DNA of 64,000 bases from Kovacikia minuta CCNUW1 (GTDB taxonomy: Bacteria > Cyanobacteriota > Cyanobacteriia > Leptolyngbyales > Leptolyngbyaceae), in the NCBI RefSeq assembly GCF_020091585.1, contig NZ_CP083582.1, positions 6,830,536 to 6,894,535 on the forward strand, written 5' to 3'. The notes under the pieces are model-generated. The model was given only the letters and a program-made list of their open reading frames with translations. It had not been told where the DNA came from and did no database searches. The translations under genes and the position numbers were made by a program. Shown here piece after piece: positions 9,047 through 60,991 of this stretch; position 1 is the first letter of the stretch, and every line of letters starts with the position of its first letter.

Positions 9047-9403
9047 GAGGGTGTTTGAAAAGTCCTACTGTCGGTAGCAAAGATGCGATCCCCCTAAGTC
9101 CCCCTTAATCAGGGGGGCTTTAAGCCTGTTTCCCCCTTTTTAAGCTACCGTGTACACACAAGTCGGAAATCTGTGAACACAAGTCCTGAAACCCTTGCTC
9201 TGCCTCAACTTTGGAAATTGGCTGAAATCTCAATAATCTCGGCTTATTGAGAACCGGCAACGAGAAATCAAGGTTGTGGAGGATCAGGTTTTCGGAAAAC
9301 GAATCAGCGATCGACTTGTGTGTACACCGTAGCCTTTTTAAGGGGGGTTAGGGGGGATCTCTGAGTGTTGCATCTTACAGTCCATACCTTTTCAAGCATC
9401 CTC
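9047..9403. mobile_element. 159-bp miniature element (IS5-like ends), copy A, interrupted by a 190-bp element
   Basis: The outer element has imperfect terminal inverted repeats GAGGGTGTTTGAAAAG and GAGGATGCTTGAAAAG and is flanked by TTA on both sides (9044-9046 and 9404-9406), a likely 3-bp target duplication. After removing the inner 190-bp insertion and its 8-bp duplication the element is exactly 159 bp, the same as the copy at 57149-58999. It has no coding capacity. The core contains the C5CTTAATCAG5-type palindromes that serve as insertion targets. The end sequence and TTA duplication suggest mobilisation by an IS5-family transposase; that is inference. Confidence 0.85.
9144..9333. mobile_element. 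190-bp miniature element with IS50-like ends, copy 1
   Basis: Terminal inverted repeats GCTACCGTGTACACACAAG and GCTACGGTGTACACACAAG (one mismatch) bound a non-coding 190-bp unit. It is flanked by the perfect 8-bp direct repeat CTTTTTAA (9136-9143 and 9334-9341). It is identical base for base to the unit at 57214-57403. Its ends match those of the complete insertion sequence at 57446-58930, so that transposase can be expected to move it in trans. It sits inside a 159-bp outer element. Confidence 0.93.
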
Positions 9404-57213: not shown

Positions 57214-57403
57214 GCTACCGTGTACACACAAGTCGGAAATCTGTGAACACAAGTCCTGAAACCCTTGCTCTGCCTCAACTTTGGAAATTGGCTGAAATCT
57301 CAATAATCTCGGCTTATTGAGAACCGGCAACGAGAAATCAAGGTTGTGGAGGATCAGGTTTTCGGAAAACGAATCAGCGATCGACTTGTGTGTACACCGT
57401 AGC
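57214..57403. mobile_element. 190-bp miniature element with IS50-like ends, copy 2
   Basis: Identical to 9144-9333. It is flanked by the perfect 8-bp direct repeat CTTAATCA (57206-57213 and 57404-57411). It is inserted in the first C5CTTAATCAG5 palindrome of the outer element, not in the one used by copy 1. It is non-coding. Confidence 0.93.
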
Positions 57404-57445
57404 CTTAATCAGGGGGACTTTAAGCCTGTTTCCCCCCTTATTAAG

Positions 57446-58930
57446 GCTACCGTGTACACACAAGTGGGGCTTGAGCTAGTTTCCACCCGATGAAGATTGC
57501 CTCAAACTGCCGCAAACCATGAATTAGAGTAGGCATTCCGGGGGACGTTGGGAGCGATAACCCGACCATCCTCCTAAGCGAGCAATTAACCAGGTTGCCC
57601 AAGCTAAAGAACTGGGAGGATGAGGATTCTGCTGTTTTTGAGTGTGTCCTTGCAACGTCGGTTCTAGCTGAGTGAGGCATTGCTGCTGTTCATCGCTAAA
57701 GGCAACAGAGGCAGATAACTCAGGGTTATCTCGCCCTTCCACCAGTTGTAGGACTCGCACGGCAATCGACAGCGCCAGCACAGTCAAGCGTTGAATGGCA
57801 TCTACCGATTCCAGTTGCGTCGCTTCGAGATTGAGTCCGGCCTGTTTGAGGGTGGCAAACAGTTGTTCAATCCGCCAGCGCCAGCAGTACCACTGAATGA
57901 CTTGGAGTGCCTGTTCTAAGCAAACGACTTCATGAGTGGTCAACAGTCGCCAATGAATCGGTTGTTGTCCAGGGGGTGGGTTGACTTCCTGTGCCTCTAC
58001 GGCGTAGAGACCCACACTGGGAGGATAGTCGTGAGCGTTGAGGTTGTCGGGTCGCCGGATCTCAACCTTCGCCACACGCACAACTAGCAATGCCTCTCGT
58101 GCAGTTTGCCCTCGACGGGGATCTTCTACCACTTGCACGGTGTAACTTCCCTGAACGGGTTGAATCGTCAGGTAGTCATAGAGCGATAACGACTGATGCC
58201 ACAGACGACGATTTTGACACACCCTGATTAATAAATGGGTTTGAGCGTCTGGAACCGTCGCCCATTCTTCATACAGGTCGCTTTCACGGTCGCCGATATG
58301 AGTGATTAACCTCGCTCCTCCAGCCCTCAAACATCGGTTGCTGCCTTCAGCCGATCGCAGCCATTTGTAGGATTCCTTTTCCTCAATCGGCAGGTGTTGA
58401 TAGTCGCGTTGATGTTTATCGCTATGGTCGATGTCACGACTCCACAAATGAATGGTACTTAACCCTAATGGAAAGCCAGTCTCGGCATTCAGCACCAGGG
58501 TTGGATGAATGAAAAACCCAACATCTCGGTCGTTGCCAACGACCCCAAGTCCTTGCGGCTTTAACCGCCCTGCATGGGACTGCAAGTTAACCTCACTGCT
58601 ATCACTAATCGATAACACATGCAATCCTTCCACCTGCGCCTGGCACTGGTCAGCAACACTCCGCACTAACTCGGATATCGTCACGTTTTCATTCTCCAAG
58701 AAACGATAGTAGCCAATCTGTTCAGCTCGATTTTGGCTGATTTGGCGAATGTTTACCGATTGGTGCTGAAACATTGCTTCATACAGTGCCGCCCCCTTTT
58801 GACTAAACGAGGGTCACCAAATGCAGTTCCTTTGATTTGTGCTGCATGAATGAGAATGGGGTTATCCATAATCAATGAGAGTTTTGAGGAGCTACCTTAG
58901 TCTAGGCTCGATTTGTGTGTACACGGTAGC
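57446..58930 (-). mobile_element. Complete IS4-family (IS50/Tn5-like) insertion sequence
   Basis: A 1485-bp element with 18-bp perfect terminal repeats GCTACCGTGTACACACAA, flanked by the 9-bp duplication CTTATTAAG (57437-57445 and 58931-58939). Family members of the IS50 group make 8-9 bp duplications, so the fit is good. It encodes one transposase on the minus strand. It is inserted in the same palindrome of the outer element that holds the 190-bp element in copy A. Confidence 0.95.
57524..58869 (-). CDS. IS4-family (Tn5-like) transposase, -1 frame change near the N-terminus
   Basis: The main frame (58774 to 57524, 416 aa) has the DDE residues D58 (LSISDSSEVN), D162 (HIGDRESDLYE) and E303, with the YREK signature Y296-x2-R299-x3-E303-x6-K310. 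The C-terminus LAWATWLIARLGGWSGY matches Tn5. The true N-terminus appears to start at ATG 58869 (MDNPILIHAAQIKGTAFGDP), in another frame that runs to a TAA just past 58774. A -1 shift at AAAAGGGGG (about 58792-58800) joins it as GDPRLVKRGAALYEAMFQHQ, which restores the Tn5-type start. It could be a lost G, a sequence error or programmed frameshifting. Confidence 0.9.
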
Positions 58931-59036
58931 CTTATTAAGGGGGTTAGGGGGGATCTCTGAGTGTTGCATCTTACAGTCCATACCTTTTCAAACATCCTCA
59001 AAACTGATGTATGACCAGAACTGCCAACCTTTAGAT

Positions 59037-59128
59037 GAATGGCACTGACTTAAGGGATTTTAGATCCCCGGATTCTTGAAGAATCCGGGGATCTGGACGC
59101 CTAGTTTTTGCTTATTTCAGTGCCATTC
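59037..59128. mobile_element. 92-bp palindromic MITE with 10-bp target duplication
   Basis: Perfect 12-bp terminal inverted repeats GAATGGCACTGA bound 92 bp. The centre is a perfect 14-bp palindrome arm pair (AGATCCCCGGATTC, 5-base loop). It is flanked by ACCTTTAGAT on both sides (59027-59036 and 59129-59138). It is non-coding, and there is no related full-length element in the window. Confidence 0.85.
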
Positions 59129-59209
59129 ACCTTTAGATTCTCTTTATGAATCAGCTCTGAGCGATTATGGGTTCATTAATCCCTGGGGCAGTCGATCGCA
59201 GTCCCCAGG

Positions 59210-60991
59210 TTAAATTGTGCAAGAAGGAGCAGTAAGCAATTGGCTCTGGAGCAACAATCCGTATTCCAACCCCTCCGCTACCGCCAGATAGGACGCTTCC
59301 AGAATGTTTCTTGACACACCAACCGTTGTCCATCGGTGATGACCATCGCTCAACTCAACCAAAACACGGGTTTTGGCAGAAGTGCCTGCCCTACCATCCA
59401 AAATTCGCACCTTATAGTCCACCAGATGGAACGTTTCGATCTCAGGGTAGAAATTAATTAATGCCTTGCGTAAAGCCACATCCAACGCTGAAACCGGACC
59501 AATTCCCTCCGCAGCTTCCAGGATATCCCTACCATCGACAGCAACCTTAATCGTAGCCAGCGACGTAGTACGAGCCGTTTCTGCCTGCGGCACCATGTTG
59601 TAGTGAACCTGGAATCCTTTCACTTCAAAGGGACGCTGCCGTTGTCCTAACGCCTCACGCATCAATAACTCAAAACTGGCTTCCGCTGCCTCAAACTGGT
59701 ACCCCTCACTTTCCAAATTTTTCAGGTGGTGTAAAATTTGGCGACAGGCGGGGTCTTGTTTGTCCAGTTCGATCCCAAAACAGCGCGCTTTTGACAAAAT
59801 ATTGCTCAAGCCGGACTGTTCAGAAATTACGATCCGACGGCGGTTGCCAACCTGCTCAGGTTTAATGTGTTCGTAGGTCAAGGGATTGCGCTCGACCGCA
59901 CTGACATGAATTCCTCCCTTATGGGCAAAGGCAGATAAGCCAATAAACGGTGCATGGTCATCAGGCGCAAGATTAACCACTTCACTCACAAATCGACTCG
60001 TTTCAGTTAATTGTGCCAATTGGGCTTCAGAGATGCAGGCAAATCCAAGCTTTGTTTGCAAATTTGGAATCAGGGAACAAAGGTTTGCATTTCCACATCG
60101 TTCTCCGTAGCCATTAATTGTTCCTTGCACCATCCGCACTCCCTGCATAACTGCCGCCAGTGCGTTGGCAACAGCAGTATCAGCATCATTATGGGTGTGA
60201 ATACCCAACTGAGGTGAGGAGGGAGGGGTAAGGCGCGAAGCGTCAATGTTGAATGTTGAATGTTGAATATTGCGTGTTGAATTTCCTTGATCTTCTGGCT
60301 CCTGGCTCCTGGCTCCTGACTCCCGACTCCCTCCATCTGCCTTCTGCCCTCTGCCTTCTGACTCTTCTAAAAAGGGAAAATCAAATGCCTGAATGACTTC
60401 TTGAACAATCTGGCTGATTTCATGGGGAAGGGTACCCCCGTTGGTGTCACAGAAAACTAGCCATTCGGCACCAGCGGAGATTGCTGCCCGCAGGGTTTCC
60501 AGTGCGTAGGTGGGATTGCGCTTATAACCGTCAAACCAGTGTTCTGCGTCGTAGATTACCCGCCGACCGTTGGCACGCAAATACTCGATCGTGTCGCGAA
60601 TCATCGCCAGATTTTCATCCAGCGTTGTCTTCAGTCCCTCAGTAACATGCAAATCCCAAGATTTCCCAAATATCGTCACCCAACGAGTTCCTGCTGCTAG
60701 GATAGGTTGCAGCATCGGATCATCAGCCGCGATCGTACCAGGTCGTCGGGTGGAACAAAATGCGACCAATTCCGCCTGCGTCAGTGGTTCCTCCTGAAGC
60801 TGCCAGAAAAATTGAACATCCTTCGGATTTGCCCCAGGCCAGCCACCTTCGATGAACGGAACGCCTAGCTTATCAAGTTGGCGCGCAATTCGTAACTTGT
60901 CCTCGATCGAAAGCGACAGCCCCTCTCGTTGAGCACCATCACGCAGGGTCGTGTCGTAAATCCAAATTTGGCGGGAAATATCTGAAGTCAT
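59210..60991 (-). CDS. cimA: (R)-citramalate synthase
   Basis: Condenses pyruvate and acetyl-CoA to citramalate, the threonine-independent entry to isoleucine. The 593-aa protein has the HMGL-like TIM barrel: metal-binding DTTLRDGAQREG (about 13-24), HTHNDA (265-270) and NGYGERCGNAN. The C-terminal LeuA-type regulatory domain (about 460-585, VKVAVDGRDILEAAEGIGPV with DYKVRILDGRAGTSAKTRV) senses isoleucine in the family. About 53 residues (208-260) of in-frame filler are inserted in the catalytic barrel, between FDFPFLE and LGIHTHNDA. Otherwise it is complete. The start ATG 60991 is the only conserved choice. Confidence 0.93.
   Translation of the reverse strand: MTSDISRQIWIYDTTLRDGAQREGLSLSIEDKLRIARQLDKLGVPFIEGGWPGANPKDVQFFWQLQEEPLTQAELVAFCSTRRPGTIAADDPMLQPILAAGTRWVTIFGKSWDLHVTEGLKTTLDENLAMIRDTIEYLRANGRRVIYDAEHWFDGYKRNPTYALETLRAAISAGAEWLVFCDTNGGTLPHEISQIVQEVIQAFDFPFLEESEGRGQKADGGSRESGARSQEPEDQGNSTRNIQHSTFNIDASRLTPPSSPQLGIHTHNDADTAVANALAAVMQGVRMVQGTINGYGERCGNANLCSLIPNLQTKLGFACISEAQLAQLTETSRFVSEVVNLAPDDHAPFIGLSAFAHKGGIHVSAVERNPLTYEHIKPEQVGNRRRIVISEQSGLSNILSKARCFGIELDKQDPACRQILHHLKNLESEGYQFEAAEASFELLMREALGQRQRPFEVKGFQVHYNMVPQAETARTTSLATIKVAVDGRDILEAAEGIGPVSALDVALRKALINFYPEIETFHLVDYKVRILDGRAGTSAKTRVLVELSDGHHRWTTVGVSRNILEASYLAVAEGLEYGLLLQSQLLTAPSCTI
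60212..60370. repeat. In-frame heptamer filler in cimA
   Basis: On the plus strand GTTGAAT heptamers, GGCTCCT heptamers and GCCTTCTGCCCTCT units. On the coding strand they read as EGRGQKADG, SGARSQEPE and NIQHSTFNI, about 53 residues absent from ordinary CimA. The insert precedes the metal-binding HTHND motif by only a few residues and keeps the frame. Confidence 0.9.

Follow-up and report, generated by a model that had tools for sequence, protein, structure and literature searches.

Insertion sequences (IS) of the IS4 subgroup, as tabulated in PMC2266710 (Table 1), are 1400-1650 bp long, carry ends of the form -AATR--------WTW----, and are flanked by duplications of 10-13 bp; the YREK signature of the subgroup is defined in the same paper as Y-(2)-R-(3)-E-(6)-K. 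Nezha and other cyanobacterial MITEs are named in a review, and the likeness of the element described here to them lies in membership in the MITE class in cyanobacteria. A further point of comparison is provided by the internal eliminated sequences of Paramecium, which show a length periodicity of ~10 bp that is explained in PMC3464196 by helical phasing of the two ends; that paper cites a 1994 length study of IS50 that employed length-stepped IS50 derivatives.

The DNA analyzed here (the window) is a 64,000-nucleotide stretch of the genome of Kovacikia minuta CCNUW1. The element of interest has the following features, given in window coordinates.

59037..59128, plus strand: MITE without coding capacity, 92 bp, one of 7 identical copies in the genome
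59027..59036, no strand: left copy of the target-site duplication, ACCTTTAGAT, a 10-bp direct repeat
59129..59138, no strand: right copy of the target-site duplication, ACCTTTAGAT, a direct repeat matching the left copy perfectly
59037..59054, plus strand: left terminal inverted repeat, 18 bp, the first 12 perfect, 17/18 identical to the ends of the L090 IS
59111..59128, minus strand: right terminal inverted repeat, 18 bp, 16/18 identical to the left repeat and 17/18 to the ends of the L090 IS
59062..59094, no strand: internal hairpin, 16-bp arms (59062-59077 and 59079-59094) with a 1-nt loop, folding z of -6.6

This element is very probably a non-autonomous MITE that is cut out and inserted by a DDE transposase of the IS4 subgroup, supplied in trans by a partner IS. 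Matching ends, a matching duplication length, identical copies at different sites, and paralogous empty sites for one copy are all seen directly; the partner transposase would be the mover, and the cut-and-paste chemistry is presumed from the IS4 family. The 12-mer GAATGGCACTGA lies at 59037-59048 and its exact reverse complement at 59117-59128, bounding a 92-bp unit (GAATGGCACTGA...TCAGTGCCATTC) that sits between perfect copies of ACCTTTAGAT, as in the original prediction of a 92-bp element with perfect 12-bp ends and a 10-bp target duplication; the similarity of the ends continues past these 12 bp to 16 of 18 positions. When 2 mismatches are allowed, GAATGGCACTGA has 10 matches in the window, a count that is unremarkable alone because 6.35 are expected by chance, and only the two MITE ends are exact. 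Chance does not give an exact inverted pair of this 12-mer adjoining a perfect 10-bp direct repeat. None of the open reading frames (ORFs) of at least 60 amino acids in the ORF list overlaps the MITE, which is situated between the gene for an IS50-like transposase (57524-58774, minus strand) and the 3' end of a citramalate synthase gene (59210-60991, minus strand; TIGR00977), 81 bp beyond the stop of the latter.

The IS50-like transposase gene belongs to an IS at 57433-58943 with 38-bp ends that are 89% complementary. Its physical closeness, and the fact that its transposase and that of the likely partner both match IS4-family models, might suggest that this neighbor moved the MITE, but its 38-bp ends (TGTGTACAC-GTAGCCTTA) share nothing evident with GAATGGCACTGA, and the chance that it did so is negligible. 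The statement in the original prediction that the MITE is unrelated to the neighboring IS50-like family thus stands for the ends and needs a qualification for the proteins: the neighbor's transposase matches the NCBIfam model transpos_IS4_3 and pieces of that of the partner match transpos_IS4_1, which makes the two IS distant cousins in the wider IS4 family. A very similar IS50-like transposase ORF occurs elsewhere in the genome, between two long ORFs (L055, 3775-5139). An apparent second miniature element is present in the window at 57384-57465, with 33-bp inverted repeats (94% complementary) that are 16 nt apart and ends in common with the IS50-like element; the L013 copy of the MITE is inserted into a relative of this stretch.

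Copies of the MITE were sought by blastn in the whole genome (8.56 Mb, 3 contigs), with the MITE and its duplications as the query. The 77 matches represent 41 copies or pieces, the palindrome causing many places to be counted on both strands. The expectation that other copies would exist was borne out: seven of the 41 are identical 92-mers, each with different flanks, two others contain one difference, and the rest are 74-96% identical over the matched part, with several truncated. Genome-wide, GAATGGCACTGA with up to 1 mismatch occurs 77+70 times, versus 7+13 for the reversed control. At one locus (L020), two copies stand in tandem, and an identical 10-bp sequence precedes, separates, and follows them. 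Matches to single ends, when followed up, led to three elements with another hairpin sequence (L050, L051, and L056) that resemble an element already found by blastn (L044). At L057 (3163-3382), the same ends enclose an element of 220 bp that is flanked by a perfect 10-bp duplication, GAATATAGTT; its interior does not cluster with the MITE interiors. The count of own elements used below (n = 34) is the 41 minus 11 truncated or decayed ones, plus L050, L051, L056, and L057, with L042 retained despite a decayed right end. Among these, 25 of 34 are 92 bp long, and a duplication (1 mismatch or fewer) flanks 25 of 34. The 92-mer had no match in plasmid and phage collections.

Target duplications were compared across 142 elements in 22 genomes, the elements from other genomes being those among the matches listed. 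A duplication with at most 1 mismatch accompanies 97 of the 142 and is absent at this limit in the other 45; its length is 10 bp in 69 of the 97, 11 bp in 24, 12 bp in 3, and 9 bp in 1. The 44 exact 10-bp duplications, both strands counted, give the consensus VNCTATAGNB with the palindromic core CTATAG, which the core of the window duplication, CTTTAG, resembles.

Empty sites were found for one copy of the MITE. The L013 copy lies inside another repeat, three other copies of which are present without the MITE: two in the window, at 9087-9180 (86% over 99 positions with the joined flanks) and 57403-57468 (81% over 69 positions), and one in L022 at 824-904 (80% over 85 positions). These sites are paralogous, 80-86% alike, with small gaps at the junction. 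This comparison skipped elements whose flanks were too short; among the 85 rows that spanned a junction, many were self-matches or simple sequence, and the detailed examination covered L013, leaving L021, the G265 copies, and others aside. The relatives returned numbered 58, none of the same genus.

The partner of the MITE is likely an IS4-subgroup IS of ~1,480 bp, which resembles the MITE closely in its 18-bp ends, has duplications of 10 bp, and is found at similar targets. The original prediction had pointed to a transposase-bearing element with such ends as something to look for, and one was found, ~1,480 bp long, of the IS4 family, and with 10-bp target duplications. The ends of the example in Leptolyngbya sp. 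PCC 6406 (L090) are 17/18 identical to each MITE end. In the K. minuta genome, single-end matches led to a 1,480-bp IS at L052 1771-3250 (C1:4464770-4466249) with the duplication gtctatttct; a frameshift and an early stop interrupt its transposase gene. A second own copy (L058) is cut short by foreign sequence that is, by eye, another IS. The search for an intact partner transposase in this genome yielded two matches at E <= 1e-60, both of them defective. The C-terminal piece of L052 matches DDE_Tnp_1 (38.2 bits, cut-off 23), and the N-terminal piece of L058 falls just below the cut-off for Nterm_IS4 (24.4 bits, cut-off 25); the two pieces score 98.1 and 95.3 bits, respectively, with transpos_IS4_1, for which the cut-off of 115 applies to a whole protein.

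A scan of genome contigs gave 9 transposase loci, among which the genes of L090 (456 codons) and of L089, from a Synechococcales MAG (454 codons), are uninterrupted. The sequence GAATGGCACTGACATAAG is found at both ends of the L090 IS and at one end of the L089 IS, the other end of which has CCTAAG in place of CATAAG. At E <= 1e-60, the transposase is present in 24 of 388 genomes of the class. The 30 transposase loci returned comprise 12 with an end pair and a 10-bp duplication whose copies agree at 9 or 10 positions, 8 with an end pair and no duplication, and 10 with no end pair. Eight of the 12 loci with a duplication have GAATGKCACTGAC-type ends and 4 have shifted ends; the broken own IS is one of the eight, and one of its ends begins with A. 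More distant relatives of the transposase with shifted ends and perfect 10-bp duplications were observed at L144 1452-3064 (GAATGGCACTAAGAAAAG) and L145 982-2463 (AAATGGCACTGAAAAAG).

These features can be set beside the IS4 subgroup as described in PMC2266710. The L090 IS, with GAATGGCACTGACATAAG, and both MITE ends fit the end consensus of the subgroup given in its Table 1, whereas the broken own IS (GACGGAAG) has GG where the consensus has WT. The ~1,480-bp length of the partner IS is within the 1400-1650 bp listed there, and the 10-bp duplications of the IS and the mostly 10- to 12-bp duplications of the MITEs fit the listed 10-13 bp. All four of Y, R, E, and K occur in the three sequences read, but these differ from the signature as defined in that paper by one extra residue, reading Y-(2)-R-(4)-E-(6)-K; when the L090 protein is aligned with IS4 by blastp, a one-residue gap falls between the R and E of YREK. 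IS4 itself, from Escherichia coli K-12, has two ends that are 11-13/18 identical to the MITE ends and has a 12-bp duplication. Its transposase InsG was compared with the intact L090 and L089 proteins (the Pfam and NCBIfam scores above come from the own pieces at L052 and L058), giving 25-27% identity at E values of 2e-27 to 3e-27. A structure prediction for the transposase from two sequences had a mean pLDDT of 33 and was not used, and the single match in a search of solved structures (E 0.72) was disregarded.

If the MITE moves in this way, the IS4-subgroup DDE transposase, made in trans by the ~1,480-bp IS, would bind both MITE ends and bring them together, excise the 92-bp unit, and join it to a staggered cut at a palindromic, CTATAG-like target, with repair of the stagger producing the duplication of 10 bp or, sometimes, 11 or 12 bp. 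MITE-type end pairs 74-104 bp long occur in 15 of the 388 genomes (0 for the control pattern), and only 3 of the 388 have both MITE (15 genomes) and transposase (24 genomes) (P 0.058). Two MITE-rich genomes, G025 and G265, have no transposase match at E <= 1e-60. Because the two sets barely overlap and these MITE-rich genomes are without the transposase, the MITEs may outlive their partner or be served by an undetected one. In K. minuta, the only full-length partner copy found is broken, and the family therefore looks as though it was recently active, with 7 identical copies, but is now stranded, unless an undetected transposase serves the MITE.

The interior of the window element holds a palindrome that the original prediction had placed at its center with a size of 14 bp; the palindrome is present, and its size was understated, since it is a 33-bp hairpin. 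The pairs of this hairpin co-vary between subfamilies. Standard pairs occupy 98.1% of the pair cells in 35 elements from 5 genomes versus 89.2% in shuffles, and 64 cells are changed on both sides versus 24.3, neither value being reached in 500 shuffles (0/500 each). The numbers of pairs with a two-sided change (6 versus 4.1, reached in 28/500 shuffles) and of further pair types (13 versus 12.1, reached in 158/500) are less decisive. The count took 35 of the 44 distinct hairpin elements listed, and related sequences inflate such counts.

A selected regulatory function could produce a conserved hairpin of this kind, acting as a transcription terminator or RNA stabilizer 3' of the citramalate synthase gene, with the repeats arising from that function and not from transposition. 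The position of the MITE 81 bp past the citramalate synthase stop, the strong fold (z -6.6), and the co-varying pairs are in keeping with such a role, as is the setting of 26 own loci (flanking ORFs converge at 9, diverge at 3, and are in tandem at 12, and an ORF is overlapped at 2, by crude ORF calling). The hairpin is also found on its own. In the genome, 56 places match the pattern GATCCCC-N12-18-GGGGATC (control, 0); among the 50 of these listed, 24 are in copies with at least one recognizable MITE end and 26 are off such copies, including L041 and L046, which are also in the 41 blastn matches through hairpin likeness. At 10 of these 26 places that were read, no MITE end (up to 2 mismatches) was present within 60 bases on either side. 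Solo GATCCCC...GGGGATC hairpins were noted at the center of L099, L101, L102, L104, L106, L107, L108, and L110; they mostly have GACTTTT-type arms, which is the arm type of the MITE subfamily of L044, L050, and L056. Yet co-variation need not mean RNA function, as DNA-level repair can also keep palindromes symmetrical, and a terminator scan and a promoter scan each returned 0 sites. Rfam returned two miRNA families only, far below gathering scores. A regulatory hairpin would also leave unexplained the target duplications, the identical copies at unrelated places, and the ends in common with an IS, and it is a very improbable account of the repeat.

In other cyanobacteria, the MITE ends enclose short elements whose interiors differ. 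Interiors were clustered by blastn (n = 131); one G265 element with N (109 bp) is part of the totals of 132 and 142 and was excluded from the clustering. Elements with the GGTGGGCANTGCCCACC-type interior are mostly 92 and 102 bp long, and other types include one of 123 bp with a long hairpin in G173, one of ~133 bp in G226, and one of ~157 bp in G015. Elements in G088 and G182 and one element in G008 fall outside the GGTGGGC family in the clustering; by eye they share short stretches with that family at the same positions and were therefore not counted as independent origins. These comparisons bear on how the MITE arose. It could be a simple internal deletion of the partner IS, with the end remnants joined and no separately acquired interior, an origin that is compatible with the MITE reading and for which the 17/18 end positions in common with the IS speak. 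By eye, however, the interior has no likeness to the IS sequences beyond the ends, and MITE families with the same ends differ in interior, which makes an origin by deletion rather unlikely.

The hairpin was also considered as a cruciform hinge, in which the palindrome bends the short DNA for synapsis, and this idea was rejected. The interiors of the window element (z -6.6), G173 (-9.6), G226 (-5.1), and G265 (-3.2) fold much better than shuffles, but those of G364 (-1.0), G088 (0.0), G182 (+1.2), and the 102-bp G008 element (+0.3) do not; with four of eight interiors lacking such a fold, a strong palindrome is no requirement.

Lengths were surveyed in searches covering 74-104 bp and 106-166 bp in the 388 genomes of the class, 98-158 bp and 25-82 bp in 36 genomes, and 79-139 bp in 63 and 36 genomes of two families. 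The 25-82 bp search of 36 genomes returned a single element, of 82 bp. Among the matches listed, the elements with a duplication are distributed as follows: 90 bp, 1; 91 bp, 3; 92 bp, 52; 93 bp, 4; 94 bp, 1; 95 bp, 1; 102 bp, 13; 103 bp, 2; 105 bp, 1; 121 bp, 1; 122 bp, 1; 123 bp, 5; 124 bp, 1; 126 bp, 1; 132 bp, 1; 133 bp, 4; 135 bp, 1; 151 bp, 1; 157 bp, 2; and 220 bp, 1. The commonest lengths, 92, 102, 123, and 133 bp, are approximately whole helical turns apart, and up to 135 bp the common classes approximate 92 + 10.5 k. For a period of 10.5, these four classes give R 0.978 and P 0.0026; the addition of 157 gives R 0.822 and P 0.026, and the further addition of the singletons 105 and 121 gives P 0.07. 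These P values are optimistic, because the classes were picked after the data had been seen and share ancestry.

A possible, though doubtful, explanation is that the short elements are phase-locked, such that only lengths with both ends on the same face of the helix spread, giving a ladder of 92, 102, 123, and 133 bp with any interior. Both ends would have to meet one transposase complex across 56-97 bp of interior, and the changes from 92 to 102 bp in G025, in G008, and in the G265 group (three that are seemingly separate, by eye) would be steps on this ladder. A prediction was fixed before the last genome search, namely, that multi-copy families of 106-166 bp would lie within 1.5 bp of 113, 123.5, 134, 144.5, 155, or 165.5 bp, and it failed. 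The multi-copy family of G015 measures 157, 157, 157, 158, and 139 bp (5 of 7 matches), which does not fit, and the single elements of G189, at 126, 151, and 158 bp, are likewise off the predicted lengths; in G032, 133 bp fits and 122 bp just fits. Longer families, such as the 157-bp one, would on this view escape the ladder, as longer DNA twists more easily. Compared with the Paramecium sequences and the IS50 derivatives, as described in or cited by PMC3464196, the MITEs show few length classes, and 157 bp does not fit. If phase-locking is true, the length ladder would amount to an experiment of nature on helical twist in bacterial transposition and would supply natural data for studying how a transposase copes with very short DNA loops.

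The open-access literature yielded no description of elements with GAATGGCACTGA ends; the 12-mer itself appears in 11 papers, and the 10 listed have titles on unrelated subjects. Subscription papers were mostly outside this search, and an earlier description is possible. The evidence supports well a genuine MITE family that is ordinary in kind and new as a member, with a likely IS4-subgroup partner. For K. minuta, this links a high-copy repeat that had no annotation to a likely transposase and gives it a recognizable, CTATAG-like insertion target, and across cyanobacterial genomes it shows different interiors being carried by a single set of IS4-type ends.
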